64,000 nt of DNA from an uncultured Tateyamaria sp. (GTDB lineage: Bacteria; Pseudomonadota; Alphaproteobacteria; Rhodobacterales; Rhodobacteraceae): contig NZ_CANNDN010000001.1 of the NCBI RefSeq assembly GCF_947503465.1, forward strand, positions 1,674,001 through 1,738,000, read 5' to 3'. Positions 32,569 to 55,733 of this stretch are shown piece by piece. A program made the translations under genes and the position numbers. The notes beneath the pieces were generated by a model. That model was not told where the DNA came from and did no database searches. It was given only the letters and a program-made list of their open reading frames with translations. Every line of letters starts with the position of its first letter. Within the stretch, counting starts at the first letter, position 1.

Positions 32569-33348
32569 ATGACCCCCATCAAAACGCATCGCGACGGTGC
32601 GATTCTCGAAGTCACCCTAAACCGCCCCAAGGCCAATGCCATCGACCTGGCCACGAGCCGGATCATGGGCGAGACTTTCAAGGCCTTTCGCGACGACCCC
32701 GACCTGCGTGTCGCGATCATTACCGGCGCTGGCGACAAGTTCTTCTCGCCCGGGTGGGACCTCAAGGCGGCGGCGGACGGGGACGCGGTTGATGGCGACT
32801 ACGGGGTCGGCGGATTTGGCGGATTGCAGGAATTGCCAGGGCTCAACAAGCCGGTGATCGCGGCGGTCAACGGAATTGCCTGTGGTGGCGGATTGGAACT
32901 TGCATTGAGCGCCGACATGATCCTAGCGGCCGACCACGCGACCTTTGCCCTGCCCGAAATCCGGTCGGGCACGGTGGCGGATGCGGCCAGCATCAAACTG
33001 CCCAAACGCATACCATATCACATCGCGATGGAACTTCTGCTCACGGGGCGCTGGTTCGACGCCGAGGAAGCGCACCGTTGGGGCCTTGTGAACGAAGTTG
33101 TCCCCGCGGGGACACTTTTGGACCGGGCACGTGACGTGGCCCGACTGATCGCCTCTGGCCCGCCACTGGTTTACGCAGCAATCAAGGAAGTTGTCCGGGA
33201 TGCCGAGGACGCGAAGTTTCAGGATGCGCTGAACCGCATCACGACCAGCCAATTGCCCACGATCGAACGCCTCTATAACTCGGAAGACCAGCTGGAGGGC
33301 GCGCGCGCATTTGCAGAAAAACGCGATCCGGTCTGGAAAGGTCGCTAG
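32569..33348 (+). CDS. caiD: Carnitinyl-CoA dehydratase-like enoyl-CoA hydratase
   Basis: A 259-residue crotonase-family enzyme that resembles CaiD closely: FSPGWDLKAAADGDA, GGFGGLQELPGLNKPVIAAVNG and the C-terminal EKRDPVWKGR are CaiD-type segments. The two active-site Glu residues are present in GGGLELALSADM and FALPEIRSG. It would hydrate crotonobetainyl-CoA to L-carnitinyl-CoA or the reverse. It ends the operon begun by the acyl-CoA dehydrogenase. Its stop overlaps the stop of the convergent di-haem peroxidase by four bases. It contains one of three copies of a 16-bp palindrome (33099-33114). I cannot exclude another hydroxyacyl-CoA substrate. Confidence 0.82.
   Translation: MTPIKTHRDGAILEVTLNRPKANAIDLATSRIMGETFKAFRDDPDLRVAIITGAGDKFFSPGWDLKAAADGDAVDGDYGVGGFGGLQELPGLNKPVIAAVNGIACGGGLELALSADMILAADHATFALPEIRSGTVADAASIKLPKRIPYHIAMELLLTGRWFDAEEAHRWGLVNEVVPAGTLLDRARDVARLIASGPPLVYAAIKEVVRDAEDAKFQDALNRITTSQLPTIERLYNSEDQLEGARAFAEKRDPVWKGR
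33099..33114. repeat. 16-bp palindrome, copy 1 (in caiD-like gene)
   Basis: The perfect palindrome TGTCCCCGCGGGGACA lies inside the CaiD-like gene and encodes Val-Pro-Ala-Gly-Thr in EVVPAGTLL. The same 16 bases occur at 42036 and 59770. Confidence 0.9.
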
Positions 33349-34646
33349 GGATCGATCCGGGGATCCACCGGCAGGCCGCTGGGCACCGACGCGGGGACGC
33401 CCAACCGGTCCTGCTGCGCCGTTTCGCCCGTGAGCGCGTGCAGAAACGCAACAATCTGATCGACTTCCGCATCGCTCAGCGTCGTTGGCCGGATCCGCAC
33501 CGCAGCGCGTTGCCGTGCCATTTCGCGGCTGTCCTGCCACGCCATGAAGTCAATCGCTTCCAACCATGGCGCGGCGGGCAACGCCGCAATGTCCGGCGTC
33601 CAGCGTTCCAGCGATGCCAGAGGGTCCAGGTGATGCCGCACAATACCTTCGAGGGTCGGGAACGCCCCGTTGTGTCCATACGGACCCGTCAAGGCCACAT
33701 TGCGCAGCATCGGCGTTTTGAATGCGTATGCGTCTTCGAGCGCATCGCTTTCCCCCATACGGCCCACATCCCGCACCATCGGGTCAAAACGGCGGGTGCG
33801 CCCAGGCCCGAACGGCGGCAGGCCGAGCGCGTGAAAGGCCTGATCCGTCATCAATGGTCCGCTATGACACGTGCCGCATGCAGCCTTGCCATAGAACAAG
33901 TCCATCCCCTGTTTCTGAGAAGCGCTTAACGCCTGGCTATCGCCTGCCAGATAGGCGTCGAACGGGCTGTCGGTGCTGGTCCATTCCCAGATCATGAAGG
34001 CGCTCAGCGCATTTGCGATGTCCGCAATGGTGATATCCTTGGCCGTGTCGATATGGTCAAACGCGCCTGCGAACCCTTCGGCATAGGCCGGAATGTGGCG
34101 AATGCGGTCCGCAAGGATCGGCCAGGCATAGTCCATACGCTGATGAATGGCGCCGGCAACTTCGTTTTCCTTCGGGTTGCCCGCCATTTCGAACTGGGCC
34201 ACCAGCGGAAAGATGGCTTGGGCGGCCAACAGATTGTCGAGGCCATCAGGCAACCATTCTTCGGCCGGCGAGTTGAAGCCGTTTTCGTACGTGTCGGCGA
34301 TACTCAGGCGTCCATCGTGAAAAATGGTGTGCAGGTCCTTGGCACCCAGATTCCACAACCCCGGCGCATTGCGTGGAATGCGCTTACGGATGCGCGACTC
34401 CCCCGTCCCCGCGGTCCGCTGCGGGCCCAGCCCGTCGCCGCCCTCGCCGATGCCCAGGCTCAACCCGTCACCTGTGCCAAGATCGGGATGATGGCAGGTT
34501 GAACAGGCGATATTGCGGTTGCCCGACAAGATGCGATCATAGAACAGAAGTTGGCCAAGCTTGGCTTGCGCCGGGTCCGCCGCGATGAAATCATCCGGAA
34601 CCAGAGGCCGCGGCGGAGCATCGGCAAAGACCGGAGACGCGGCCAG
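33345..34646 (-). CDS. Di-haem cytochrome c peroxidase family protein, start unclear
   Basis: A periplasmic protein of about 430 residues in the cytochrome c peroxidase/MauG family. Two haem c motifs are visible, CSTCH near the N-terminus and CGTCH near the middle, along with KTPMLRNVALTGPYGHNGAFPTLEGIV and FHDGRLS. A signal-peptide-like stretch HVILLAASPVFADAPP precedes the mature part. However, no ATG, GTG or TTG lies in this frame between that stretch and a point far upstream in the opposite gene. The coordinate given is an in-frame CTG. An ATG one base out of frame at about 34676 suggests a small frameshift or a non-standard start. It opposes the Sel1 gene. Confidence 0.75.
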   Translation of the reverse strand: MAASPVFADAPPRPLVPDDFIAADPAQAKLGQLLFYDRILSGNRNIACSTCHHPDLGTGDGLSLGIGEGGDGLGPQRTAGTGESRIRKRIPRNAPGLWNLGAKDLHTIFHDGRLSIADTYENGFNSPAEEWLPDGLDNLLAAQAIFPLVAQFEMAGNPKENEVAGAIHQRMDYAWPILADRIRHIPAYAEGFAGAFDHIDTAKDITIADIANALSAFMIWEWTSTDSPFDAYLAGDSQALSASQKQGMDLFYGKAACGTCHSGPLMTDQAFHALGLPPFGPGRTRRFDPMVRDVGRMGESDALEDAYAFKTPMLRNVALTGPYGHNGAFPTLEGIVRHHLDPLASLERWTPDIAALPAAPWLEAIDFMAWQDSREMARQRAAVRIRPTTLSDAEVDQIVAFLHALTGETAQQDRLGVPASVPSGLPVDPRIDP

Positions 34647-34655
34647 GAGGATGAC

Positions 34656-35126
34656 ATGCGAAAACTTGCCATAGCCCTTTGTTTTCTGGCCATGCCCGCC
34701 CTTGCCGAGATCGAGGAAGCGCGCGACCTGATGGAGGCCGGAGCGTATGAAGCCGCCTATGACGCCCTGTGGCCTGCCGCGCGATCGGGCAACGCCGATG
34801 CCGAAGAACTGATTGGCGTGATGTATGCTTTGGGACTGGGCGTTGACCGCGATGATGAACGCGCGTTCGAGTGGTACCTGCGGTCGTCCATGAAGGGGCA
34901 CCCGGGTGCGCAAAGCGGTGTCGGCTGGTATTACGAGGTCGGGCGCGGCATGCCCGCCCCGGATCTTGTGCGTGCCTATATGTGGTACACCCTCAGCGCC
35001 ATTGGCGGCGATCCTGACGCCGCGATTTCGCTGGAAGAGGTGGTCAAGAAGATGACGCAGGACGAGATTGATCGGGCGCATATTCTGGTCGCTGACTACA
35101 AGGTGTGGATGTATCCATTTCGCTGA
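34656..35126 (+). CDS. Sel1-repeat (TPR-like) exported protein
   Basis: A 156-residue protein with a short signal peptide (MRKLAIALCFLAMPALA) and about two to three Sel1-like repeats, for example AEELIGVMYALGLGVDRDDERAFEWYLRSSMKGHPGAQSGVGWYYEVG, which I cite only as residues about 48-95. Such repeats mediate protein contacts in the periplasm or envelope. The start is ATG 34656 with AGGAGG upstream. The gene begins almost back to back with the cytochrome c peroxidase on the other strand. Confidence 0.8.
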   Translation: MRKLAIALCFLAMPALAEIEEARDLMEAGAYEAAYDALWPAARSGNADAEELIGVMYALGLGVDRDDERAFEWYLRSSMKGHPGAQSGVGWYYEVGRGMPAPDLVRAYMWYTLSAIGGDPDAAISLEEVVKKMTQDEIDRAHILVADYKVWMYPFR

Positions 35127-37005: not shown

Positions 37006-37360
37006 TTGTTCCCACGCGCTTGCCCGCGCTACGCCTTGGCCAATTCGCTGATGCAGATCACCCGCTTGCCCACGGTCCGCATCCATTGCACCAAAGCGTG
37101 TGTGCGCCACTGTTACGCGACCCTGGCACCCTGCCCGGACCACCATTTCTTGTCCGTTTTGTTGTGTCACAGCGCTTTGGGAACCGATTCCACATTCTTG
37201 CCTGCGTTTCGGGCCGCTGACTGGGGTTTTGTCAGTTCCGGCACCGCGCGATCCGGGACCGTATCGCAGCGACGAAACGTGATATCTGGGGCTATCAAGT
37301 CGGGCACAAAAAATGGCCGCCCCGCAACGGGACGGCCACATCGTCAGACGCGGGGTCTGA
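37006..37360. other. Intergenic region: AraC promoter region plus TRAP terminator
   Basis: This 355-base gap holds a terminator at its right end (37308-37338) and presumably the promoter of the AraC gene. A sequence with 12 of 14 matches to the AglR-type palindrome is at 37167-37180. No coding sequence stands out. Confidence 0.6.
37308..37338 (-). terminator. Rho-independent terminator of the TRAP/monooxygenase operon
   Basis: Read on the minus strand, TGGCCGTCCCG pairs with CGGGGCGGCCA (one G-U pair) around a short loop and is followed by six T bases, 23 bases after the dctP-type stop. Confidence 0.88.
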
Positions 37361-38419
37361 TCAGTTCAGGTCAGCAGCACGCGATGCATTCACATCGGCC
37401 TCAGCCGCCGCAACGGCTTCGGTCAACGCGGCAAGGATTTCATCGCCACGGGCGACGTTTGCCACGAACCAGTCGCTGACAGGTGCTGCGGCTTCGGCGA
37501 ATGCAGCCTTCTGTTCGGGTGTCGGCACATACAGGTCACCGCCACCGGCCACAAAGTCTTCGTAGGCCTGGATCGACTTGCGCTTGGGCGATGCAAATGT
37601 CGCTTGTTGCAGCGCATAGAAGCCGTCCACAACAACGCGGCGCATGTCTTCTGGCATGCCCAGGAACTTTTCGTTGTTCATCCACCACAGCGCGCCCATG
37701 TAGGCATGCCCGTCCAGCGTGACATATTGCAGACCTGCATCGGGGAATTTCATGCCCATGATGTCGGTGATGCCGTTTTTCGACCCTTCAACAACGCCCG
37801 TCTGGAACGAGGTAAACAGCTCGGGCCACGGGATCGGGGTTGGCGAAGCGCCCAGCGCCTTGACCAGTTCCTGCGGCAGGTCGGCAACCACGGTACGGAT
37901 TTTCAACCCATCCATGTCCGACGGTTCGGCCACGCGGCGCTGCGTGTTCGCAAAGTTGCGCCAGCCGCCAGTGTTGCCCACGGTCATCAGGCGGATCGCG
38001 CCACCGGAATCTTCCAGCGCCATGTCGCGCATGGTACGCACAAAGTCACCTTGCAGCACATGTTCAGCAATGCGGTCATCTGCCATCAGGTACGGCAGAT
38101 CAAGAACCTGCACATACGGGAAGATGCCCGAGGCACCGCCCGAGGTGGAGATGTACACATCGATCGAGCCATCGGCCACGCCTTGCAGGCATTCTGCACC
38201 GTTCGAGCACAGCTGTGTTCCGATGAACAGCTCGACCGCGATGGCACCGTTCGAGGCTGCCTCGACGTAGTTTTTGAACACGACCAGACCGTCATAATCT
38301 TCGTCGTTGGTGTTCGAGTTGGCGGTCGCACGGATCGTGTAATCCTGCGCTTGTGCCATGATCGCAGACCCCGCGACAAGCGCGGCAGCGGTCAGGGTTT
38401 TGAGGGTTGTTTTGAGCAT
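37361..38419 (-). CDS. TRAP transporter substrate-binding protein (DctP family)
   Basis: A 352-residue periplasmic solute receptor of the DctP family. A signal peptide of about 24 residues ends at MAQAQD. Family segments include FGTQLCSNG-like FIGTQLCSNGAECLQGV, LDLPYLMADD and the ligand-pocket region GLKIRTVVADLPQELVKALGASPTPIPWPELF, of which the Arg usually contacts the ligand's acid group. It follows the large permease gene by 32 bases and ends the minus-strand operon. Given the sulfo-SMO genes upstream in the same operon, sulfoquinovose or its glycoside is a likely ligand (inference). Confidence 0.92.
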   Translation of the reverse strand: MLKTTLKTLTAAALVAGSAIMAQAQDYTIRATANSNTNDEDYDGLVVFKNYVEAASNGAIAVELFIGTQLCSNGAECLQGVADGSIDVYISTSGGASGIFPYVQVLDLPYLMADDRIAEHVLQGDFVRTMRDMALEDSGGAIRLMTVGNTGGWRNFANTQRRVAEPSDMDGLKIRTVVADLPQELVKALGASPTPIPWPELFTSFQTGVVEGSKNGITDIMGMKFPDAGLQYVTLDGHAYMGALWWMNNEKFLGMPEDMRRVVVDGFYALQQATFASPKRKSIQAYEDFVAGGGDLYVPTPEQKAAFAEAAAPVSDWFVANVARGDEILAALTEAVAAAEADVNASRAADLN

Positions 38420-38451
38420 TATGGTAGGTCCTCCCGGTTCAAAGCTCTGGA

Positions 38452-39924
38452 TTAGTTTGCAAACCCCGTCAGGCGGGGAATGGTCATGGAAATGGCGGGC
38501 ACATAGGTGATCAGGAAGATCACCGCGACTTCGATGGCAAGGAAGGGCAGGATCGCCCTGGCGATGGTTTCGACCTTCTCGCGACTGACGGCGGCCGCCA
38601 CGAAAAGGACAAGCCCCATGGGGGGCGTTGCCAGCCCCACGGTCAGGTTCACCGACATGATGATGGCAAAGTGGATCGGATCAACACCCAGATCGACAAA
38701 GATGGGTCCCAGGATCGGCCCCAGGATGATGATGGCCGGCCCCGCATCCAGGAACATGCCCACGATGAACAAAAGGATGTTGATCAGGAACAGCAGCACC
38801 AGGGGGTTTTCCGACAGCGTCAGGATGAAATCGGCAAGGATCTGCGGCGCATAGCTGAGCGATACAACCGTCTTGAACGCCAGCGCCGCACCCACCAACA
38901 GCAGGACCACGGCAGAGGTCAGCCCCGCTCGGCTGAGGATTTCGGGCAGGTCCGCAAGCCGCATGGTGCGCAGGACAAAGAAGGCGACAAACACGGCATA
39001 GGCCACGGCAACCGCCGCCGCCTCTGTCGGGGTGAACACGCCGCCCAGGATGCCACCAAGGATCAGAACCGGCGTTTGCAGCGGCACGATGGCCCGTTTG
39101 CAGATGGTGCGGAATTCATTGCTGACTAGCGTTCTGAGGGCCAGCATAAGGGCGTGCGCCACCACAACCGCACCCGCAAACGTGCCCCACGTGATCAGCG
39201 CGGATGTGTCGCCCAATGGCAGGAACGCCCAGATCAGCAGGCCGATGTTCAGCCGCACCAGCGCCCAGGACACCCAGCGTTCTGTCGGGCTCAGCTCGAC
39301 TCCGTCGAACTTGACCTTGTGCGCGGCGGGCAGGTCGTAACGGTCTGCCGTGACCCGGATCATCACCATCAGGCCAATGCCCACCAACACGCCGGGCACG
39401 ATGCCGGCAAGGAACAGGGCGGCAACGCTTTCGCCCATCACATACGCATAGATAATCATGATGCCCGAGGGCGGGATGATCGGTCCGATGACAGAACTCG
39501 CCGCCGTGATCGCAGCAGCGTAGCGGCGGGTATATCCCTCTTTCTCCATCGCGGGGACAAGCATGGAGCCCAGAGCGGATGTGTCGGCCACGGCCGAGCC
39601 CGACAGGCCCGCGAACAGGATCGACGACAGGACGTTCACCTGCGCAAGTCCGCCGCGCAAGTGGCCCATGAGCGCTTGGGAAAACTGGACAAGGCGGATC
39701 GTGATCCCGCCCTTGTTCATCAATTCGCCCGCCAGCATGAAGAACGGGATTGCCATCAGCGGAAAGCTGTCCATCCCGTTGTAAACATTGCGGTACAGCA
39801 GCGTGATGTCGCGTTCCTGGCCGTTCAGATACAGCAGGATACCGGGCGCGGCGAGCAGACCAAAAAAGACCGGCAGGCCGATCATCAGGAACAGCAGGAA
39901 CAGCGGAAGGAACCAGATCAGCAT
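38452..39924 (-). CDS. TRAP transporter large permease (DctM family)
   Basis: A 490-residue inner-membrane protein with about 12 to 13 hydrophobic segments. Family marks are FLPLFLLFLMIGLPVFFGL at the N-terminus, GLSGSAVADTSALGSMLVPAM and SVIGPIIPPSGIMIIYAY, and MSVNLTVGLATPPMGLVLF near the C-terminus. It is the sodium-coupled transport subunit. A hydrophilic-flanked insertion around residues 195-260 is longer than in the shortest DctM proteins. Its start is one base after the small permease stop. Confidence 0.93.
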   Translation of the reverse strand: MLIWFLPLFLLFLMIGLPVFFGLLAAPGILLYLNGQERDITLLYRNVYNGMDSFPLMAIPFFMLAGELMNKGGITIRLVQFSQALMGHLRGGLAQVNVLSSILFAGLSGSAVADTSALGSMLVPAMEKEGYTRRYAAAITAASSVIGPIIPPSGIMIIYAYVMGESVAALFLAGIVPGVLVGIGLMVMIRVTADRYDLPAAHKVKFDGVELSPTERWVSWALVRLNIGLLIWAFLPLGDTSALITWGTFAGAVVVAHALMLALRTLVSNEFRTICKRAIVPLQTPVLILGGILGGVFTPTEAAAVAVAYAVFVAFFVLRTMRLADLPEILSRAGLTSAVVLLLVGAALAFKTVVSLSYAPQILADFILTLSENPLVLLFLINILLFIVGMFLDAGPAIIILGPILGPIFVDLGVDPIHFAIIMSVNLTVGLATPPMGLVLFVAAAVSREKVETIARAILPFLAIEVAVIFLITYVPAISMTIPRLTGFAN

Positions 39925-39925
39925 A

Positions 39926-40510
39926 TCATTCGCTCCCCGCGGCCATGTCGCCCAGATCGAGATCCGGCAAGCGGTCCCCGCCGCCCATCAATTCGATCAG
40001 CTTGCGTAGGATCAGTTCGATATTGACCATCAGCAGAAGGATGACGCCCACCAACAGTGACAGCATCATCCAACTGCGCGGCACACGGAACCAGCCATCA
40101 AAGGTAGGCAGATAAAGAGACGCGGTCGCAAAGCGGCCGCCAAAGCCGGTCACTTCCGAGATACCGATAGGCAAAGCAACCAGCAGGATCGAAATGGAAA
40201 TCAGCAGCAGGACCAGCCCGAGGATTGCGGCCATGGCCCGCGGCAAAACGCCGGAGATCATATCAAGCGCCACAAACCCGCCGCGCCGAAAGGCCGTAGG
40301 GGCCATCAGCCCCGTCATCCACAGCATGCAGAAGCGCGCGGCCTCGTCCGGCCAGGGCAGAGCATTGTTGAATAGATAGCGGGCCACGACCTGAATCAGG
40401 ATCGCAATGACCATCGCCGCAATCGCAGCGATGCCAATGGCACGCCCTATCTTGAGCAGAGCGCCATTCACCCAGCTGATCGGCGCAAGCACCGTCAGTA
40501 ATAGACCCAT
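39926..40510 (-). CDS. TRAP transporter small permease (DctQ family)
   Basis: A 194-residue inner-membrane protein with four hydrophobic segments and the family-typical LFNNALPWPDEAARFCMLWMTG at about residues 48-70. It pairs with the large permease. AGGGAGGG precedes its ATG. It is 87 bases downstream of the flavin reductase gene on the same strand, which places the transporter in one operon with the monooxygenase genes. Confidence 0.92.
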   Translation of the reverse strand: MGLLLTVLAPISWVNGALLKIGRAIGIAAIAAMVIAILIQVVARYLFNNALPWPDEAARFCMLWMTGLMAPTAFRRGGFVALDMISGVLPRAMAAILGLVLLLISISILLVALPIGISEVTGFGGRFATASLYLPTFDGWFRVPRSWMMLSLLVGVILLLMVNIELILRKLIELMGGGDRLPDLDLGDMAAGSE

Positions 40511-40597
40511 GAAGGGCCCTCCCTTTGCGGTCGCCCGGCGGTTAGTCCACCGTGGCCCATTTTCCGCTTTAACCCCGCGGGCGGGTCTTGGCCTGCC

Positions 40598-41110
40598 CTA
40601 GTCGCGCAGGCTGCCGTACTGGCCGGCAAAGAACGTGAGCGGCTGGCCGTCGCGCATTTCGGTGCGCTGGACCTGGCCCACGATAATGACGTGGTCACCC
40701 GCATCATGTGCTGCCACCTTGCGGCATTCGAACCGCGCAAGGCAATGATCAATCAACGGAACTCCGTCCGCGTTCAGCAGATGGGGGTGATCGTTCAGCA
40801 TGTGCGCGTCACGCGCAGCAAGTGTGCAGACATCCTGCTGTTCAGCGGCCAGCACATGGATGGCATAATGATCAGCCGCCTCGAAATATGGAAAGCGGCG
40901 GGCGCTTCGGTCCACGGACCACAACACAAGGGCCGGATCCAGCGACACGGACGAAAAGCTATTGGCCACAATGGCGACCGGGCCGTCGACGCTTGGGGCG
41001 GTGATCACGGTGATGCCGGTGGCAAACTTTCCAAACGCGTCGCGCAGTTGGCGGCTGCTGTCTGCGTCGGGCGAAAACGTTGTGGGTTGGTTCGGGCTTT
41101 GCATTGTCAT
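40598..41110 (-). CDS. smoA: Flavin reductase, SmoA-like partner of the monooxygenase
   Basis: A 170-residue flavin reductase of the HpaC/RutF-like family: RDAFGKFATGITVITA, IVANSFSSVSLDPALVLWSVDRSARRF and FECRKVAAHDAGDHVIIVGQV are family segments. It would supply reduced FMN to the LLM monooxygenase encoded two genes upstream. Order (monooxygenase, aldo/keto reductase, flavin reductase, regulator opposite) matches smoA-smoB-smoC-smoD of the Agrobacterium sulfoquinovose pathway. Its start overlaps the aldo/keto reductase stop by one base, so translation is coupled. The gene symbol rests on this context. Confidence 0.82.
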   Translation of the reverse strand: MTMQSPNQPTTFSPDADSSRQLRDAFGKFATGITVITAPSVDGPVAIVANSFSSVSLDPALVLWSVDRSARRFPYFEAADHYAIHVLAAEQQDVCTLAARDAHMLNDHPHLLNADGVPLIDHCLARFECRKVAAHDAGDHVIIVGQVQRTEMRDGQPLTFFAGQYGSLRD

Positions 41111-42000
41111 CAGGCTACCTCGTGTCCTAGGGCCGCCTCGTACAGACGGAACCATGTGGGTCGGTCGAGCGATACCTTGGTGGCAGCACCGATGTTCTTG
41201 ATCCGGTCGATGTTGTTGGTGCCCATGACCGGGATGATGCGTGCGGGGTGCGCCAGCAGGAACGCCGTCGCGATCGCCGCGCGGTCCACACCGTGGGCTT
41301 TTGCCAATTCGTCCATGACGCTGTGCAGCTTGTCATTGCCTGTCATCAGGCCCCCGCCACCCAGGGGCGACCATGCCATCAACGGCTGGCCGTGTTTCTG
41401 GTGGAAGGCCAGATCGCCATTGGTGAAGGGGTTGATTTCGCTTAAGGAAATTTCGATCTGGTTGGTGACCAGCTCGGTCTTCATACCCGATTGCAGCAGT
41501 TCCCAGTCCCAGGGACGGAAGTTCGACACGCCCACAGCGCCTACCTTGCCCGACGCAACCGCCTCGTCCAGCGCAGCCCCGGTTTCATGGTGATCCATGA
41601 GCGGATCGGGCCGATGGATCAGCAGAAGGTCGATATGGTCAATCGCCATGTCCCGGAGCGAGTTCTCGATGCTCTGCATGATGTGCGCGCGGGAGGTGTC
41701 GTAATACTTGACCGGTGCATCGGCATAGCGCCCCACCGGGGCCACGATGTCGCATTTGGTCACGATCTCCATCTTTGACCGCAGGCCGGTGTCGGCCTTC
41801 AGGGCCTCGCCCAGCACCGCTTCGGCCACGTAACCGCCGTAGATGTCAGCCTGGTCAAAGGTGGTTATCCCCTGATCAAGGCAGGCGTGGATCTTGGCCT
41901 GCACATGCGTGGTGGACGTGTCGCTGTCATCGGCCAGACGCCACATGCCGTAGACAATGCGAGAAAAATTCAGGGTATCGGATAGGTGGACGCGATCCAT
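41110..42000 (-). CDS. smoB: Aldo/keto reductase, SmoB-like (6-oxo-glucose reductase candidate)
   Basis: A 296-residue aldo/keto reductase with the full tetrad Asp49, Tyr54, Lys82 and His129 (FDQADIYGG, VTKCD, LLIHRPD). The strand SPLGGGGLMTG and MGTNNIDRI correspond to the cofactor-binding end. In the sulfo-SMO pathway SmoB reduces 6-oxo-glucose, released by SmoC, to glucose. Position between the monooxygenase and the flavin reductase, with one-base overlaps on both sides, supports that role. A YdhF-like general reductase is the alternative if the cluster acts on another substrate. Confidence 0.82.
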   Translation of the reverse strand: MDRVHLSDTLNFSRIVYGMWRLADDSDTSTTHVQAKIHACLDQGITTFDQADIYGGYVAEAVLGEALKADTGLRSKMEIVTKCDIVAPVGRYADAPVKYYDTSRAHIMQSIENSLRDMAIDHIDLLLIHRPDPLMDHHETGAALDEAVASGKVGAVGVSNFRPWDWELLQSGMKTELVTNQIEISLSEINPFTNGDLAFHQKHGQPLMAWSPLGGGGLMTGNDKLHSVMDELAKAHGVDRAAIATAFLLAHPARIIPVMGTNNIDRIKNIGAATKVSLDRPTWFRLYEAALGHEVA

Positions 42001-43154
42001 TAGCGGCGCTCTCCTGCGGCGAGTGGGGTTGCAGGTGTCCCCGCGGGGACACGTCCGTAAGCATGGGGCAACGAACAGGTTTTCAAGTGCGGCATGACGC
42101 GCGCACCAAAGTGTTTCGCCTCGTCGATATGGGGGTAGCCAGAGAAGATGAAGGCGCGAATGCCCATGTTCTGGTACTCTTCGATCTTCGACATGACCTG
42201 ATCCGTCGACCCAACAAGGGCTGCCCCACAGCCCGACCGCGCCCGGCCCACACCGGTCCAGAGATTGGGTTCAACATAACCGAACTTGTCGGCCAATTCG
42301 CGGGCCTTGGCCTGATGCGACACGCCCAGCGATGTGGAATCAAGCGCGCGGTCTCGGATCAACTGTCCATATTCATCATCCAGCTTCGACACGATGAAAT
42401 CAGCGTATTCACGGGCCTCGGCTTCGGTATCGCGCACGATCATGTGGACGCGCAGGCCATAGTCCAGCGTGCGGTCATATTTCTCGGCCACCGCATTCAC
42501 ATCGCGCATCCGCCCCTTCAGGTTCTCCACGGGTTCGGGCCACATGAGGTAGACGTCGCAATGCTGGCCGCACAGCTCGAGGGCTGACGGCGAGTAGCCC
42601 CCGAAATAAAGAAGCGGGCCGCCCGTCTGGTAGGGGCGCACCGGATCGGTGGTGAGCCCTTTGAAGTTATAGACCTCGCCCTCGTAGTTGATTTCGTCCC
42701 GCGTCCACGCTTGTTTCAGGATTTCAACGACCTCGCGCGAACGTTGGTACCGATAGTCACTCTCGGCTTTCTCGCCCGGGAAATCGGACGAAATGATGTT
42801 CACCGTCAGTCGCCCCTCAAGCATGTGGTCGAGCGTGGCAATGGTGCGGGCCAGCATGATCGGCTGCATCTCGCCACAGCGCACCGCCGCCAGCAGGTTG
42901 ATCTTGGACGTGATGGGGGCACAGCCCGCCACGAAAGACAGCGTGTCCTGACCCACTTGGTAGGACGAGGGGCACAGGATGTTGCGAAACCCCTGCGTCT
43001 CGGCCTCTTTCACGATGTCCGAGCAATGCGCCCAGCTTGACCGCAAGTCGCCATCCGGCACACCAAGGAACTGGTAGTCGTCCGAACAAAGAGCGGAAAA
43101 CCAGGACACCTCGGCCGCATCAAGGTCGGGGGAGGTGATCGGAACGACGGTCAT
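42000..43154 (-). CDS. smoC: LLM flavin-dependent monooxygenase, SmoC-like (sulfoquinovose monooxygenase candidate)
   Basis: A 384-residue luciferase-like monooxygenase of the alkanesulfonate monooxygenase (SsuD) type. Segments seen are SYQVGQDTLSFVAGCAP, LAAVRCGEMQPIMLARTIATLDHMLEGRL, NIISSDFPGEK and GGYSPSALELCGQHCDVYLMWPEP, all typical of SsuD-like enzymes. In the sulfo-SMO pathway SmoC cleaves the C-S bond of sulfoquinovose, giving sulfite and 6-oxo-glucose. The start ATG 43154 gives a normal-length enzyme; the frame upstream runs into the divergent promoter. The C-terminal tail contains one copy of the repeated 16-bp palindrome. Other sulfonates remain possible. Confidence 0.82.
   Translation of the reverse strand: MTVVPITSPDLDAAEVSWFSALCSDDYQFLGVPDGDLRSSWAHCSDIVKEAETQGFRNILCPSSYQVGQDTLSFVAGCAPITSKINLLAAVRCGEMQPIMLARTIATLDHMLEGRLTVNIISSDFPGEKAESDYRYQRSREVVEILKQAWTRDEINYEGEVYNFKGLTTDPVRPYQTGGPLLYFGGYSPSALELCGQHCDVYLMWPEPVENLKGRMRDVNAVAEKYDRTLDYGLRVHMIVRDTEAEAREYADFIVSKLDDEYGQLIRDRALDSTSLGVSHQAKARELADKFGYVEPNLWTGVGRARSGCGAALVGSTDQVMSKIEEYQNMGIRAFIFSGYPHIDEAKHFGARVMPHLKTCSLPHAYGRVPAGTPATPLAAGERR
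42036..42051. repeat. 16-bp palindrome, copy 2 (in smoC-like gene)
   Basis: TGTCCCCGCGGGGACA, extended here to 18 bases by a flanking G and C. On the coding (minus) strand it encodes Val-Pro-Ala-Gly-Thr in the C-terminal tail GRVPAGTPATP. Confidence 0.9.
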
Positions 43155-43198
43155 CTGCGGTCTTTCATCTGAGTAACTTGGCACTTGCGTAACATTGT

Positions 43199-43216
43199 CA
43201 TTGATGTAGATCAATG
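43199..43216. promoter_or_regulatory. Candidate operator of the GntR-type regulator
   Basis: CATTGAT-GTAG-ATCAATG is a perfect inverted repeat with a four-base spacer in the 99-base gap between the divergent monooxygenase and regulator genes. A further ATCAAT follows at 43221-43226. The place and symmetry suit a dimeric regulator controlling both sides. Confidence 0.6.
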
Positions 43217-43253
43217 GTGTATCAATTTCCACATCCATCTGTTCTGACGCCAC

Positions 43254-43964
43254 GTGACACGCGCCCAACAATCCCCCCACTCTCTGCCGATCTACGTGCA
43301 GATCGCCGAGCTTCTGACCCGCGACATCGTGGCCGGCCGGCTGATTGATGGGGAACGGCTGCCGCCCGAACGCGACATGGCATCAGAGCTGGGCATAAGT
43401 GTGGGCACATTGCGCAAGGCCCTGCGGGACATGGGCGAAAAGGGCCTGATCGAAAGTGTTCAGGGCTCGGGCAACTACATCCGGGCCAGTGGCGATACGG
43501 GTACCGTCTATGCGATGTTTCGCCTGGAATTGCTCGAAGGTGGCGGCCTGCCGCGGGCCCAGGTGCTGTCTGTGGACCTGATGGACAAGGCACCTGACCT
43601 GCCTGACTTCGGCACCTCTGGTCAGGCCACCCGGATCCGCAGGTTGCGGTCCCTGAATGACACAATCATGGGCGTGGAAGAAATCTGGCTGGATGCGGAT
43701 GCGGGAATCGTGTCCCAAGCCACCATGTCCGAATCCCTTTACGCCACCTATCGCAAGGAATTGGGTCTGTGGATCCAGCGGGCCGAAGACCGTGTGTCAC
43801 TGGGCCCCGTGCCTGATTGGGCACCGGACGCCTACGCCCCCCGTCCCGGCGATACCGTTGGCTACATCGAACGCCTGAGCTGGTCAGACGCTGCGGCCCC
43901 CATTGAATTTTCCCGCACATGGTACGACCCGGCACGGGCCGTCTATGTGCAACGACTGAAATAA
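43254..43964 (+). CDS. GntR family regulator with UTRA domain, SmoD-like
   Basis: A 236-residue regulator: winged helix-turn-helix at about residues 12-75 (LPIYVQIAELLTRDIVAG, LPPERDMASELGISVGTLRKAL, GLIESVQGSGNYI) and a UTRA ligand-binding domain after it, ending IEFSRTWYDPARAVYVQRL. The start is GTG 43254. It is divergent from the monooxygenase operon and directly upstream of the Gfo/Idh/MocA gene. The corresponding position in the Agrobacterium sulfoquinovose cluster also holds a regulator. It probably represses both arms until a sulfo-sugar binds. Confidence 0.88.
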   Translation: MTRAQQSPHSLPIYVQIAELLTRDIVAGRLIDGERLPPERDMASELGISVGTLRKALRDMGEKGLIESVQGSGNYIRASGDTGTVYAMFRLELLEGGGLPRAQVLSVDLMDKAPDLPDFGTSGQATRIRRLRSLNDTIMGVEEIWLDADAGIVSQATMSESLYATYRKELGLWIQRAEDRVSLGPVPDWAPDAYAPRPGDTVGYIERLSWSDAAAPIEFSRTWYDPARAVYVQRLK

Positions 43965-43975
43965 AGGAACACCGC

Positions 43976-45091
43976 TTGGAACAGGTACGCTACGGCATCA
44001 TCGGATGCGGCATGATGGGGCAGGAACACATGCGCAATATCGCACTGCTGCCCGAGGCAAGCGTCGCCGCGTACTTTGAACCCGATGACGGGATGGCGGC
44101 GCTGGCGGGCGCGATTGCCCCGGCGGCCAGACGGGTTGCCTCGGTGGCCGACCTGTTGGCGGTGGACGAACTGGACTGTTTGCTGATCGTCAGTCCCAAC
44201 TTCTGCCACGTGGCGCAAATGGAAGAGATCGCGGCGATCCGCCCCTTACCCTTGCTGGTGGAAAAGCCGCTGTTCACGGATCCGGATGATACGATCAAAC
44301 TGGCGACCTTCCGCGATGCCTACCCGGCGCCGATCTGGGTGGCGATGGAATATCGCTACATGCCGGTGATCTCGGAATTCCTGTCAAAAGCTGACGCTGC
44401 CACCGGCGGCGTCAAACAACTCAGCATCCGCGAGCACCGCTTTCCTTTCCTGGAAAAGGTCGGCGACTGGAACCGCTTCAACCGCTTCACAGGCGGCACC
44501 TTTGTCGAAAAATGCTGCCACTTCTTTGATCTGATGCGCCTGACAATGGGTGCGGAGCCGGTGCGCATCATGGCATCGGCCAGCCAGTCCGTGAACCACC
44601 TGACCGAAGCCTATGACGGCGAAGTGCCCGACATCATCGACAGCGGCTATGCCTTGGTTGATTTCGACAATGGCACGCGGGCGATGCTGGAATTGTGCAT
44701 GTTCGCCGAAGGCAGCGCCTATCAGGAAGAACTGTCTGCCGTGGGGCCATCCGGCAAGATCGAAGCCTTTGTACCTGGCCCCGGCCGGTTCTGGCCGGAC
44801 CATCTGGGCCCGGCTCCCGTGGCCAAGCTGGTCACATCGCCCCGCCATCCGCAGGGGCCCGAAACGCACGATATCCCGGTGGACCCGACGTTGCTGGAAG
44901 CGGGCGACCACAACGGATCAACCTTCTATCAGCACCAGAAATTCGTTTCGATCGTCCGCGGCACTGGCACGCCGGATGTCACACTTATCGATGGTTGGGC
45001 TGCGGTGGCGATGGGTATCGCCGCACAGGAAAGCGCCAGAACGGGTCAGGCGGTCGACCCAATGCGCTGGATGCCCCCGTCCTCCGGCTAA
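43976..45091 (+). CDS. Gfo/Idh/MocA oxidoreductase; candidate NAD-dependent sulfoquinovosidase
   Basis: A 371-residue Gfo/Idh/MocA family protein. The Rossmann motif is VRYGIIGCGMMGQEHM, the catalytic Lys lies in LVEKPLFTD, and the C-terminal domain has TGGTFVEKCCHFFDLMRLTMG with the His that normally contacts the sugar. A cluster without a GH31 sulfoquinovosidase, and the known existence of NAD-dependent sulfoquinovosidases in this fold (GH188), suggest it cleaves sulfoquinovosyl glycerol. A plain sugar dehydrogenase is the alternative. The start is TTG 43976, chosen because AAAGGAAC lies six bases before it. It follows the regulator by 11 bases. Confidence 0.82.
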   Translation: MEQVRYGIIGCGMMGQEHMRNIALLPEASVAAYFEPDDGMAALAGAIAPAARRVASVADLLAVDELDCLLIVSPNFCHVAQMEEIAAIRPLPLLVEKPLFTDPDDTIKLATFRDAYPAPIWVAMEYRYMPVISEFLSKADAATGGVKQLSIREHRFPFLEKVGDWNRFNRFTGGTFVEKCCHFFDLMRLTMGAEPVRIMASASQSVNHLTEAYDGEVPDIIDSGYALVDFDNGTRAMLELCMFAEGSAYQEELSAVGPSGKIEAFVPGPGRFWPDHLGPAPVAKLVTSPRHPQGPETHDIPVDPTLLEAGDHNGSTFYQHQKFVSIVRGTGTPDVTLIDGWAAVAMGIAAQESARTGQAVDPMRWMPPSSG

Positions 45092-45204: not shown

Positions 45205-46524
45205 TCAGCGCAGCATCTTCTGAAACGCATGCCATGATGCCTTGGGGGTCCGTTCCAGCGTGTCGAAATCGACATGGACCATGCCAAAGCGTTTCTCATA
45301 GCCCAGCGCCCATTCGTAATTGTCCATCAGCGACCACGCCATGTAACCCTTAACCGGGACGCCCTTGGCGATGGCATCGCGGACAGCTTGCAGGTGGCTT
45401 TGGAAATACGCGATGCGGGCATCATCCCGTACCGCACCCTCGACGATCACATCTGCATTCGACATGCCGTTTTCGGTGACGAACAGGGGCAGATCGCCCG
45501 TGTATTGCTCTGCCGTGCGCACAAGAAAATCGTGCAAGCCCTGGGGATAGACCTCCCACCCCATCTGCGTTTTTTCCAATGGTCCTTCGACCGCATGGTG
45601 ATGCGGCCACGGACCGTCGTTCGGGGCCAGGATCGATCGTGTGTAGTAGTTGATGCCGGCCCAATCGAGCGGGGCGCTGATCGTGGCCATGTCGTCCTGC
45701 CACCCGGCGGGAAAATGCGGCCCCAGGGCAGTGACCAGGCGTTCGGGATAGCAGCCCTTGAACGCGCCAGAGACAAAGAAATGGTTGTAGTAATCGTCAT
45801 ACAGCGCCGCCGCCTCGACCGCGCCCGCGCTGTCATCGGCGGGCGCCGCCCATTCCATATTGAAGACGGCGCCAAGATTGCCGATCCCCATGCCGCGCAT
45901 CCGCTCTACAGAGGTGCCATGCGCCAACAGCACATGGTGCATCGCCCGCGCCGTGGCGCGAATGTCACGCAAACCCGGCGCGTGATGCCCGATGAAATGC
46001 GACAGCCACGACACGCACCAGAATTCGTTGATGGTCGCGACCGAATAGGTCCGGTCGCCGATCCGTCCCATCACCGCCTCGGTAAAGTCCCCGAACCACC
46101 CCGCGATGTCCCGGTTGCGCCAGCCACCAAGATCCGCGAGCGCTGATGGCAATTCCCAGTGATAGAGTGTGACACAGGGTTTGAGGTTCCGCGCCAGCAT
46201 GCCGTCAACCAACCGGTCATAGAAATCGAGGCCGTCCGGGTTCACCGTCCGCCCATCCGGCATCACCCGCGCCCAGCTGGTCGAAAAGCGATACGCGTCA
46301 AAGCCCCCGTCGCGCAACAGGTCCAGGTCCGCCTCGTACCGGTGATAGTGATCGCAGGCGCGCGCGCCATCCTCGGCCCGGACAACATTGCCCGGCGTGG
46401 CAGCGAAATCGTCCCACATGGTGCGACCTGCATCGCCATATTGGTGGCCCTCAATCTGGTAGGCAGAGGTTGCAGCCCCGAAAAGGAACCCTTCGGGAAA
46501 GTCAGAGCGTTTGTGCGTGAACAT
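45205..46524 (-). CDS. GH1 family beta-glucosidase
   Basis: A 439-residue glycoside hydrolase family 1 enzyme without signal peptide. The N-terminal FLFGAATSAYQIEGHQYGD and the nucleophile in LFVTENGMSNAD are intact. The acid/base Glu is in ATINEFWCVSW; the residue after Glu is Phe, whereas nearly all GH1 enzymes have Pro there. The C-terminal MAWSLMDNYEWALGYEKRFG is also typical. It would hydrolyse beta-glucosides in the cytoplasm. It follows the LacI-type regulator by two bases on the same strand, so it joins the agl regulon. Confidence 0.92.
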   Translation of the reverse strand: MFTHKRSDFPEGFLFGAATSAYQIEGHQYGDAGRTMWDDFAATPGNVVRAEDGARACDHYHRYEADLDLLRDGGFDAYRFSTSWARVMPDGRTVNPDGLDFYDRLVDGMLARNLKPCVTLYHWELPSALADLGGWRNRDIAGWFGDFTEAVMGRIGDRTYSVATINEFWCVSWLSHFIGHHAPGLRDIRATARAMHHVLLAHGTSVERMRGMGIGNLGAVFNMEWAAPADDSAGAVEAAALYDDYYNHFFVSGAFKGCYPERLVTALGPHFPAGWQDDMATISAPLDWAGINYYTRSILAPNDGPWPHHHAVEGPLEKTQMGWEVYPQGLHDFLVRTAEQYTGDLPLFVTENGMSNADVIVEGAVRDDARIAYFQSHLQAVRDAIAKGVPVKGYMAWSLMDNYEWALGYEKRFGMVHVDFDTLERTPKASWHAFQKMLR

Positions 46525-46526
46525 GG

Positions 46527-47564
46527 TCAGTCCCTGGAATGATCCGGCGCGGGGCCGGTTGAGGTGCCCGAGACAAACTCGGCCTCCCACAATTCGGTTT
46601 CGTGCGGCGCATGTGGCATGCGAATTCTGTTGATCAACATCTTGGCCAGTGCAGCCCCCGCCGCCCGCACCGATGATTGCCATGCCGTGAACACGGGCGT
46701 GTCACCGCCATTGCCAAAATAGCTGAGGCAGTCGTCAAAGGTGACGATGGATACGTCTTTGCCCACGCGCAGTCCTCGTTCATCCAGGGCCCGGCGAACG
46801 CCAGCCGCACAAATGATCGAGGCGGCCAGAAACGCCGTGGGCGGCTGGTCGAAATCCAGCATCAGGTTTGCCTGCGCATAGCCATAGGCTTCGGTCATTT
46901 CGCCCGTGCTCATCAAATCAGGCACAATGGGCAGCCCTGCAAAACGCAAAGAGGATTCGTAGCCCGATCGGCGGCGAATGGCGAAATCCATGGTTTCCTG
47001 CCCATTGATCAACGCAATCCGGCGATGACCAAGGCTGGCCAGGTAGGACGTCGCCTCGGAAAAGGCGCGCGTGTTATTGACGTCCAACCAGGAATAAGGC
47101 GCCTTGATCCCCGTCGACCGGCCATGCACCACATATGGGAGCCCGATCTTGTCCAGTAGGGCAAGGCGCGAATCGTTGCGGCGCGGCGCGTGCACCACCA
47201 CTCCGTCGACGGCGCCCCGCGCCTTGAGATTGCGATACGTGTCCGCCTCGTCCTGGGCGCCCACACGCGTCACCATCATGTCATAGCCGTGCGCGGCATA
47301 GCTTTCACCGGCGCCGGCCATGAAGTCGCCAAAGATCGGATTCACCATTTCCGCCGAATCGCTGACAGAAATGACGTGTCCGATGCACTTTGCATGGCCC
47401 GTGGCCAACCCCTGCGCCCGCGTGTTGGGGCTGTAGGCATGCGCCTGGGCCGCCTGAACGACGCGGGCACGGGTTTTTTCCGACACCTCGGGATAGCCGT
47501 TCAGCGCCCGGCTTACCGTTGTCTGGCTGAGACCCAGCAAAGATGACAGTTCCTTAAGATTCAC
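46527..47564 (-). CDS. aglR: LacI family regulator of the alpha-glucoside operon (AglR-like)
   Basis: A 345-residue LacI/GalR-type repressor. The N-terminal helix-turn-helix and hinge are MNLKELSSLLGLSQTTVSR and ARAYSP-like AHAYSPNTRAQGLATG; the sugar-binding core follows. It is divergent from aglEFGAK across 245 bases that hold two matching palindromes, and the same arrangement is known from rhizobial agl operons. It should repress the operon in the absence of alpha-glucosides. It is followed on its own strand by the GH1 gene. Confidence 0.88.
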   Translation of the reverse strand: MNLKELSSLLGLSQTTVSRALNGYPEVSEKTRARVVQAAQAHAYSPNTRAQGLATGHAKCIGHVISVSDSAEMVNPIFGDFMAGAGESYAAHGYDMMVTRVGAQDEADTYRNLKARGAVDGVVVHAPRRNDSRLALLDKIGLPYVVHGRSTGIKAPYSWLDVNNTRAFSEATSYLASLGHRRIALINGQETMDFAIRRRSGYESSLRFAGLPIVPDLMSTGEMTEAYGYAQANLMLDFDQPPTAFLAASIICAAGVRRALDERGLRVGKDVSIVTFDDCLSYFGNGGDTPVFTAWQSSVRAAGAALAKMLINRIRMPHAPHETELWEAEFVSGTSTGPAPDHSRD

Positions 47565-47579
47565 AGGGCGATCCGTTCC

Positions 47580-47589
47580 AAAGCGCTTT
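47580..47589. promoter_or_regulatory. LacI-type operator, aglR side
   Basis: AAAGCGCTTT is a perfect palindrome 16 bases upstream of the aglR start. It shares its core with the 14-bp palindrome at 47726, so both are probably bound by AglR. Confidence 0.65.
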
Positions 47590-47725
47590 CAAAGTCGCAG
47601 GCTAGCGGTTGGTTGCGCTAACGTCAAAACTTCTGATGGCTCTCGTTTTACGTGTTAAACTAATTTGCATCGACAGACCGAGACCATTTGACAGGACGTG
47701 AAAATTCGGCAACGGTCGCGGCATT

Positions 47726-47739
47726 CCAAAGCGCTTTGG
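47726..47739. promoter_or_regulatory. LacI-type operator, aglE side
   Basis: CCAAAGCGCTTTGG is a perfect 14-bp palindrome about 70 bases upstream of aglE. Its centre is 148 bases from the centre of the aglR-side site, close to 14 helical turns, which would permit looping. Confidence 0.75.
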
Positions 47740-47809
47740 CAATCTTGAAAGCGTACATGATCCGCGCATCAGCCGGGTCGGATTGGACACGAATGGGAGG
47801 ACGACCAGA

Positions 47810-49168: not shown

Positions 49169-49191
49169 GGCCACAAGCCACTCACAACACA

Positions 49192-49219
49192 GACCAGCCC
49201 GCGTATTTGCGGGCTGGTC
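49192..49219 (+). other. Intercistronic hairpin between aglE and aglF
   Basis: GACCAGCCCGC and GCGGGCTGGTC form a perfect 11-bp stem with a six-base loop, 24 bases after the aglE stop. There is no T run. It probably protects the aglE message end or partly attenuates transcription. Confidence 0.7.
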
Positions 49220-49292
49220 AACCAGACCGGCCAACGCCGCCGGTCCGCGAGAGACCCGACAAAACCGGGCCTCGCCAAAGGGAGGAAGCGTG

Positions 49293-51682: not shown

Positions 51683-51694
51683 GACCTCTCATCA

Positions 51695-53350: not shown

Positions 53351-53400
53351 ACGAGGAAACGGGGGGCGGGTCACCGCCACCCCGAAGGGAGGGACCAACC

Positions 53401-54489: not shown

Positions 54490-54492
54490 GGC

Positions 54493-55695: not shown

Positions 55696-55733
55696 CAAGC
55701 CATTCCTCCCATTGCGATCTTTGCGCGCGTCAA

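Follow-up and report, generated by a model that had tools for sequence, protein, structure and literature searches.

A TRAP importer with Sel1-repeat and MauG-like partners in a predicted sulfoquinovose locus of a Tateyamaria-like roseobacter

Sulfoquinovose (SQ) is an abundant sugar of plants and algae. The amount synthesised and broken down each year has been put at 10 billion tons (PMC10755693), and SQ import has been called poorly characterised (PMC8873060). The sulfoquinovose monooxygenase (sulfo-SMO) pathway of Agrobacterium tumefaciens is encoded by smoA–I (PMC13372026, PMC9594981), and the locus includes an ATP-binding cassette (ABC) importer (PMC8873060). Here we analyse a stretch of 64,000 nucleotides (the window; C1:1674001-1738000 of the 4.1 Mb genome, in 10 contigs, of a marine bacterium) in which genes for the same proposed chemistry stand with a tripartite ATP-independent periplasmic (TRAP) importer, DctPQM, in place of the ABC importer. 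We take the A. tumefaciens locus to share the gene order of the window, with smoC, smoB, smoA and a divergent GntR-type smoD, and presume that it holds a GH31 sulfoquinovosidase where the window has a GH188 enzyme. The closest kin belong to Tateyamaria: SmoC matches that of an uncultured Tateyamaria at 96%, and DctP that of T. omphalii, also at 96%. Roseobacter clusters described by Kaur et al. 2023 likewise combine sulfo-SMO genes with GH188, which is reported to be near-universal in the clade and replaces GH31 (PMC10755693), and the glycosidase part is therefore already known. The main text of that paper names no transporter, and neither the Sel1/MauG-like pair nor the operator occurs in the text consulted; its figures may show TRAP genes. 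From its sequence, the window very probably carries a sulfo-SMO locus for complete SQ use with a dedicated binding-protein importer. Pathway and glycosidase are of known kinds; what is new is the TRAP importer together with its Sel1-repeat and MauG-like partners, for which we found no earlier report in the literature searched, where work on roseobacters and SQ and on the Agrobacterium pathway was incompletely covered.

We compared the predicted proteins with solved structures and curated family models. SmoC scored 711 bits against 7olf and 707 against 7oh2, followed by 7jv3 (MsuD-type, 191), 1nqk (SsuD, 184) and 8t0u (SfnG, 106), and SmoB scored 403 bits against 7bby and 7bbz, with a next best match of 209. 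The deposited names are generic; we take 7olf and 7oh2 to be characterised SmoC, and 7bby and 7bbz characterised SmoB. A sequence-only reading of the locus had placed the luciferase-like (LLM) monooxygenase with SmoC and had named kinship to SsuD, MsuD or SfnG as the danger to that view. The assignment survives a comparison of scores, which is not a family tree: SmoC lies far under the cut-offs of the curated models for SsuD (TIGR03565, 244 bits, cut-off 518) and SfnG (157 bits, cut-off 383), and the MsuD-type structure trails by the scores given above. We rejected all three identities. The flavin reductase has a FerA-type family match and is equated with SmoA by position only. Joint encoding of SmoC and SmoB marks a sulfo-SMO system (PMC13372026), and by structure-match scores both are encoded together in the window; an Agrobacterium-type ABC importer (smoEFGH) and GH31 sulfoquinovosidase, which are no part of that definition, do not occur at this locus, where TRAP and GH188 genes stand instead. 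The predicted enzymes of the window fit the known sulfo-SMO pathway.

The arrangement of the genes also agreed with the sequence-only reading, which had described three enzyme genes overlapping by single bases, a GntR-type regulator opposite them, dctQMP continuing on the same strand to a strong terminator, and a Gfo/Idh/MocA gene after the regulator (Table 1). Across smoC, smoB and smoA every stop shares one base with the next ATG, and the 87-base gap between smoA and dctQ has a clear ribosome-binding site ahead of dctQ and no terminator in our scan of the window. That scan returned 14 terminator-like sites where 8.4 are expected in shuffles, so we cite only the strong operon-end terminator, a 12-pair hairpin with a T run. 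The smoC open reading frame (ORF) is open from 43280, and its PDB homologues begin at Met 43154. The gene that we call sqgA starts 11 bases past smoD; its ORF is listed from an ATG at 43919, and the TTG at 43976, which lies behind AAAGGA, is the likelier start.

Synteny in relatives had been proposed as a check, and we found it in the 80 closest named ones, chosen by SmoC similarity. dctM directly follows smoA in 64 of these loci (62 with all three dct genes; L042 and L062 end early) and not in the other 16, which include L032, cut by a contig end inside smoA. A Gfo/Idh/MocA gene adjoins smoD in 79. With these two counts the arrangement is not due to chance, and the swap of TRAP for ABC is real and widespread. 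The sole locus of the 80 without GH188, that of Cognatishimia activa (L008), has smoD, smoC, smoB and smoA, and lacks both GH188 and TRAP in the stretch examined. On a plasmid of Qingshengfaniella alkalisoli (L122), dctQMP directly follow smoC, and smoB, smoA and GH188 are unannotated in the stretch shown, for which the gene table is incomplete.

The Gfo/Idh/MocA product, left unexplained by the sequence-only reading, matched 8zn9 with 539 bits, 8qc2 with 350 and 8qc3 with 343; the latter two are FlSqgA and ArSqgA (PMC10755693). It is 47% identical to the aligned stretch of ArSqgA, and eight published SQ-contact residues (Lys107, Tyr136, Arg166, Leu170, Lys172, Glu189, His193 and His321; numbering of PMC10755693) are all identical in it. 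All 80 smo-linked rows keep the same eight, as do all 16 rows taken from SmoC-negative genomes. Glu163 of that paper aligns one position off, with a Glu at 164 in our numbering. Because these contact residues are identical, we identify the gene as encoding a predicted GH188 NAD-dependent sulfoquinovosidase, SqgA, which would supply the hydrolysis step for which the earlier scheme had no gene. SqgA has no apparent signal sequence and should work inside the cell. This feature and its NAD dependence suggest that the importer carries a glycoside as well as, or instead of, free SQ.

DctP, DctQ and DctM are encoded together and all score above their Pfam cut-offs, as expected of a TRAP (DctPQM) system. 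We surveyed 390 genomes of the host's order, all reported as one family, calling SmoC at E < 1e-200 (194 of 258 matching genomes; the remainder match only above 1e-60) and the DctP orthologue at E < 1e-100, one per genome. The DctP orthologue was found in 155 genomes: in 132 of the 194 with SmoC and in 23 of the 196 without. SmoC stood without DctP in 62 genomes, and 173 had neither. Fisher's test gave p = 8e-32 for this co-occurrence, a value that is inflated since it treats related genomes as independent. We located 150 of the 155 DctP genes (all but those of G060, G080, G073, G144 and G247): 126 lie beside smoC, 19 beside a second type of cluster described below, and five are unlinked (G077, G329, G084, G375 and G241). 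Among the double-positive genomes, both positions were available for 100, and DctP lies 4.4–5.1 kb from SmoC in 99 of them (not in G077); 29 of the remaining 32 were examined, and the genes are adjacent in 27 (not in G329 and G084). Three of the five unlinked cases have SmoC and a close GH188 elsewhere, and G375 has a 52% GH188 elsewhere that is flagged for one stop in the matched range.

We then looked at 21 of the 23 genomes that have DctP only, leaving out G060 and G080. Apart from G173, these were 20 genomes, and in 18 of them genes for GH188, a PfkB kinase and an SftI-like isomerase stand in one stretch with TRAP, accompanied by a LacD-type aldolase in 17 and by an aldose epimerase and a well-matching GabD-type dehydrogenase in nine. 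G173 has the kinase, aldolase and isomerase beside TRAP, and in L145 and L146 none of the kinase, isomerase, GH188 and aldolase genes is near TRAP. For L134, one of these loci, the sole NCBIfam match of the isomerase is sulfoquinovose isomerase SftI (252 bits, cut-off 700) and no PDB entry matches it, and the aldolase matches 8tnf best in the PDB, with tagatose-bisphosphate aldolases behind it. Of the 80 SmoC loci, one was hit by the kinase query and none by those for aldolase and isomerase. We read these stretches as an SQ cluster of the sulfo-Embden–Meyerhof–Parnas (sulfo-EMP) type; the same cluster logic has been described with a GabD-type dehydrogenase (PMC8873060). On this reading, the SmoC-negative relatives combine the same TRAP with a C–C cleaving set as in sulfo-EMP or sulfo-EMP2 clusters; the window has a C–S cleaving set.

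We built a tree from 84 DctP proteins, of which 64 are smo-linked, 18 EMP-linked and two unlinked (bootstrap not quite settled), and it interleaves the two settings. The EMP label needs five changes, all forced by well-supported branches, compared with 16.5 in shuffles, and the EMP-linked L138 and L141 group with smo-linked DctP of Limimaricola, Roseibium and Ruegeria. No column of the 84 rows has differing majority residues, at 80%, between the settings. Interleaving and the lack of a separating column make SQ or its glycerol glycoside the most likely shared substrate of the TRAP importer. The simplest reading is of a transporter that would hold on to one ligand as the enzymes downstream of it are exchanged: SQ and its glycosides are common to both pathways, and a C3 sulfonate is made by only one. 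As an association, the case for SQ or SQ-glycerol as the substrate is strong. The importer could also be a mere chromosomal neighbour with no part in SQ use, as neighbouring genes are inherited together in related genomes, yet it stands with two different enzyme sets, changes setting at least five times on the tree and, in three genomes of genus g4, lies elsewhere on the genome with SmoC and GH188 still present; we regard mere neighbourhood as extremely improbable.

The receptor sequence bears on a further possibility, that a sulfo-SMO enzyme set stands beside a TRAP for other cargo, such as a sugar acid or a C2–C3 sulfonate (sulfolactate, dihydroxypropanesulfonate), and that a different importer brings in SQ. 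TRAP receptors usually bind acids. The nearest solved receptors are labelled as binders of dicarboxylate, sialic acid and isethionate, all at low scores (best 4p47, 117 bits; isethionate receptor 8t9t, 87 bits), and the 62 SmoC-positive genomes without a DctP orthologue do without this importer. C2–C3 sulfonate TRAPs such as 8t9t share the DctPQM family and the GLKIRT arginine with the window system; this arginine has an acid-binding role and is present in 84 of 84 DctP rows. The window system differs in its proposed six-carbon sulfosugar ligand and in an invariant cysteine pair, C71/C77; both arginine and cysteines are among 127 invariant positions of 352. Against a short sulfonate or sugar acid stand the occurrence of the same DctP beside two pathways that have SQ in common and the uniform columns described above, and a C3-sulfonate importer or exporter would be idle in sulfo-SMO because that pathway makes no C3 sulfonate. 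We consider a different cargo quite improbable and SQ or SQ-glycerol the better candidate. An AlphaFold model of DctP (27-row alignment) had a mean predicted local distance difference test score of 69, falling to ~32–40 over residues 201–240, and was for this reason not used for fold search or pocket reading.

The large permease DctM comes in two lengths among 86 proteins (from L001–L080, L119, L120, L122 and L134–L153): ~490 amino acids in 35, including that of the window, and ~428 in 51. The long form has ~61 extra residues (211–276 of the window DctM) with two hydrophobic stretches, and each form is found with both pathways. A gene of ~300 codons directly follows smoA in six loci, five of them from named genomes without TRAP and one on a Marinovum plasmid (L011 12568-13467, L049 12554-13447, L058 6166-7047, L065 and L068 12554-13447, L121 9566-10462). 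It is annotated as acetyl esterase in Marinovum, the others are 51–64% identical, and that of L049 has no Pfam match; it is possibly a deacylase for acylated SQ.

Just outside the segment covered by the sequence-only reading lie genes for a Sel1-repeat protein and a MauG-like di-haem protein. Relatives of both genes stand after dctP, that of Sel1 in reverse orientation and that of the di-haem gene in the same one, in 58 of 93 smo–TRAP loci, 18 of 19 EMP-linked loci and three of five unlinked loci. The arrangement is absent from the 19 loci that lack DctP, three of them truncated. Across the 390 genomes, the Sel1 gene (E < 1e-40) was found in 124: 103 of the 132 with DctP and SmoC and 21 of the 23 with DctP only. 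It occurred in none of the 235 DctP-negative genomes (0/62 with SmoC only, 0/173 with neither). Both positions were available for 122 genomes: in 113 the gene lies less than 8 kb from DctP, and in the other nine, all DctP-positive, it is at least 8 kb away, six of these having it on another contig or more than 400 kb off. The closest di-haem orthologues, with E up to 5.8e-158, come from 126 genomes; in 123 of 123 they and the Sel1 gene are at most 3 kb apart. DctP is missing from three genomes with the di-haem gene (G087, G216 and G377), and a close di-haem gene is missing from G075, which has the Sel1 gene. More distant di-haem paralogues occur in 246 of the 390 genomes (E < 1e-70). The Sel1/MauG-like pair, by this distribution, belongs with the importer; 31 of the 155 DctP-positive genomes lack the Sel1 gene, and the pair is therefore not obligatory.

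The di-haem protein shares the PF03150 family with MauG and related di-haem enzymes, and its translation has two CxxCH motifs. It differs from them in its link to a TRAP importer and in its scores, which fall below the cut-offs for MauG (TIGR03791, 137 of 444 bits) and for the MauG-like proteins associated with the His-Xaa-Ser system (TIGR03981, 251 of 340 bits). The role of the pair may be receptor maturation, cargo oxidation or peroxide removal. That the MauG-like enzyme only clears peroxide made by the flavin monooxygenase would fit its membership of the di-haem cytochrome c peroxidase family, and distant di-haem proteins (49–50%) lie ~3 kb from SmoC in two TRAP-less genomes, G158 (C39:231338) and G342 (C1:1581387); its Sel1 partner, however, follows the importer rather than the monooxygenase in the counts above (21/23 against 0/62), and we judge peroxide clearance as its only function unlikely.

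Several observations weigh against the importer being a uniform, SQ-dedicated part of the pathway. The 62 of 194 SmoC-positive genomes without DctP show that TRAP is not required for it. No SQ cluster surrounds five of the 150 located DctP genes, and among the genomes concerned G241 lacks both SmoC and a close GH188. The matches behind the sulfo-EMP label score below cut-off, as with SftI above. We also compared DctP columns with the presence of the Sel1 gene, and the strongest differences were at 213, 214, 174 and 38. Positions 213 and 214 (beside N215) and 174 (beside R175) adjoin presumed pocket residues, so members of the family need not all share one ligand; the comparison is uncorrected for kinship, and the Sel1-less rows are partly close kin. 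Finally, relatedness of the genomes inflates all co-occurrence statistics.

To the regulation of the locus, the gap between smoD and smoC contributes a conserved alignment block, AATTGATACAC(Y)ATTGATnnAC...TGcTACGCAAG. Its 17-base core, ATTGATACACNATTGAT, is present with at most two mismatches in 81 of 81 smoD–smoC gaps, 59 of them exact, and it is also exact in the copy on the Rhizobium sp. SL42 plasmid (L119). A search of both strands of the 80 loci (1.55 Mb) gave 80 hits and none outside these gaps, and the host genome has one exact site, the next best having two mismatches. We propose this element as a candidate SmoD operator overlapping the smoC promoter. The conserved TGcTACGCAAG at 43184-43194 is separated from the second TTGAT by 17 bases, a spacing that would suit the −35/−10 pair of the smoC promoter. 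We rejected a wider SmoD regulon, with six genome sites at up to three mismatches against three for a reversed control. The element might instead be an FNR/FnrL box through which oxygen, not SmoD, sets expression: an exact TTGAT-N4-ATCAA occurs in the window, where 0.05 are expected by chance, in 44 of the 81 regions and at eight sites in the host genome. In the alignment of 81 sequences, however, the second half-site is poorly conserved while the core is found throughout, and the nominally free spacer of the box is itself conserved. We did not retain the FNR box as the principal regulatory reading and consider it distinctly unlikely that oxygen is in control in place of SmoD.

The sequence-only reading had noted that the window holds no sulfite oxidase, exporter or glucokinase. 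Searches of the genome agree for sulfite oxidase and glucokinase, as matches to PF02685, PF04976, PF00174 and PF03601 are all outside the window or absent. A glucokinase-family gene (PF02685), scoring under the glucokinase cut-offs of NCBIfam, lies 17.8 kb beyond the right end of the window, and the host genome encodes a SoxC sulfite dehydrogenase (590 bits, cut-off 420). It also has adjacent molybdopterin, 4Fe-4S and DmsC-like genes, none of which passes an equivalog cut-off and which we take to be a SoeABC-like set. A TauZ-type sulfate exporter was rejected for the host, in which PF03601 has no match (no search was made for TauE-type exporters). A 'putative sulfate exporter family transporter' is annotated 3′ of dctP in Rhizobium sp. 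SL42 (L119 14926-15885) and Ruegeria sp. TM1040 (L120 15079-15152), and is a candidate outlet for sulfite or sulfate there. TM1040, a culturable roseobacter, has the genes of the locus on its megaplasmid.

To the right of sqgA, 45205-55698 holds a GH1 beta-glucosidase gene (548 bits, cut-off 479) and sugar ABC transporter genes. The Tateyamaria loci have relatives of the GH1 and binding-protein genes too, and L013, L052, L060 and L072 have such relatives on the opposite side of smoC. By position, the ABC genes (47783-54489) belong to a separate sugar locus.

Table 1. Features of the predicted SQ locus, in window coordinates.
Feature	Coordinates	Strand	Basis
smoC, LLM-family sulfoquinovose monooxygenase (predicted)	42000..43154	-	711 bits to 7olf; below SsuD, SfnG cut-offs
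smoB, 6-dehydroglucose reductase (predicted, aldo/keto reductase)	41110..42000	-	403 bits to 7bby/7bbz
smoA, flavin reductase	40598..41110	-	FerA-type, 185 bits (cut-off 260)
dctQ, small TRAP permease	39926..40510	-	PF04290, 79 bits (cut-off 28)
dctM, large TRAP permease, long form	38452..39924	-	PF06808, 371 bits (cut-off 24); TIGR00786, 400 bits
dctP, periplasmic receptor, proposed SQ/SQ-glycerol binder	37361..38419	-	PF03480, 167 bits; association census
Terminator of smoCBA-dctQMP	37313..37339	-	12-pair stem and T run
Candidate SmoD operator, ATTGATACACNATTGAT	43210..43226	-	conserved in 81/81 intergenic regions
FNR-like palindrome overlapping candidate operator	43201..43214		exact in 44/81 regions
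smoD, GntR-type regulator, GTG start	43254..43964	+	GntR-type matches, none above equivalog cut-off
sqgA, GH188 NAD-dependent sulfoquinovosidase (predicted), TTG start inferred	43976..45091	+	539 bits to 8zn9
Sel1-repeat protein, probably secreted	34656..35126	+	PF08238; co-occurs with TRAP
MauG-like di-haem cytochrome c peroxidase family protein, start not fixed	33345..34586	-	PF03150, 116 bits; TIGR03981, 251 bits (cut-off 340)

We infer the following course of events from gene order, orthology and conserved residues, together with the co-occurrence and co-location of genes and the conserved promoter element. Periplasmic DctP would capture SQ or, more likely, SQ-glycerol, which DctQM would import on an ion gradient. 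In the cytoplasm, SqgA with NAD+ would split the glycoside into SQ and glycerol. SmoC, using flavin reduced by SmoA and O2, would cut the C–S bond and convert SQ to sulfite and 6-dehydroglucose, which SmoB would reduce to glucose, and genes elsewhere in the genome would provide for sulfite oxidation and glucose phosphorylation. SmoD would govern the divergent promoters through the conserved element ahead of smoC. The Sel1 and MauG-like proteins would act in the periplasm with the importer, perhaps, as a guess, maturing or protecting the receptor.

Beyond this locus, we lean somewhat towards a broader proposal: DctPQM would be the founding member of a TRAP family that carries a glycoside of a six-carbon sulfosugar, and a main route of SQ into marine Rhodobacterales. 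It would be a portable module that has switched partners several times between two breakdown routes of unrelated chemistry, served by two dedicated secreted proteins, the Sel1-repeat and MauG-like di-haem proteins. If so, DctP would be the first solute receptor dependent on a di-haem oxidase, for example through oxidative modification of the receptor or its cargo, and the tie to the Sel1/MauG-like pair raises the new question of why an importer needs a di-haem enzyme. The candidate operator opens regulation of the pathway to direct testing. A TRAP specific for SQ or its glycosides, if confirmed, would account for SQ scavenging by marine roseobacters, add sulfosugars to the known cargo of TRAP transporters and serve as a genetic marker of SQ use in ocean data sets.

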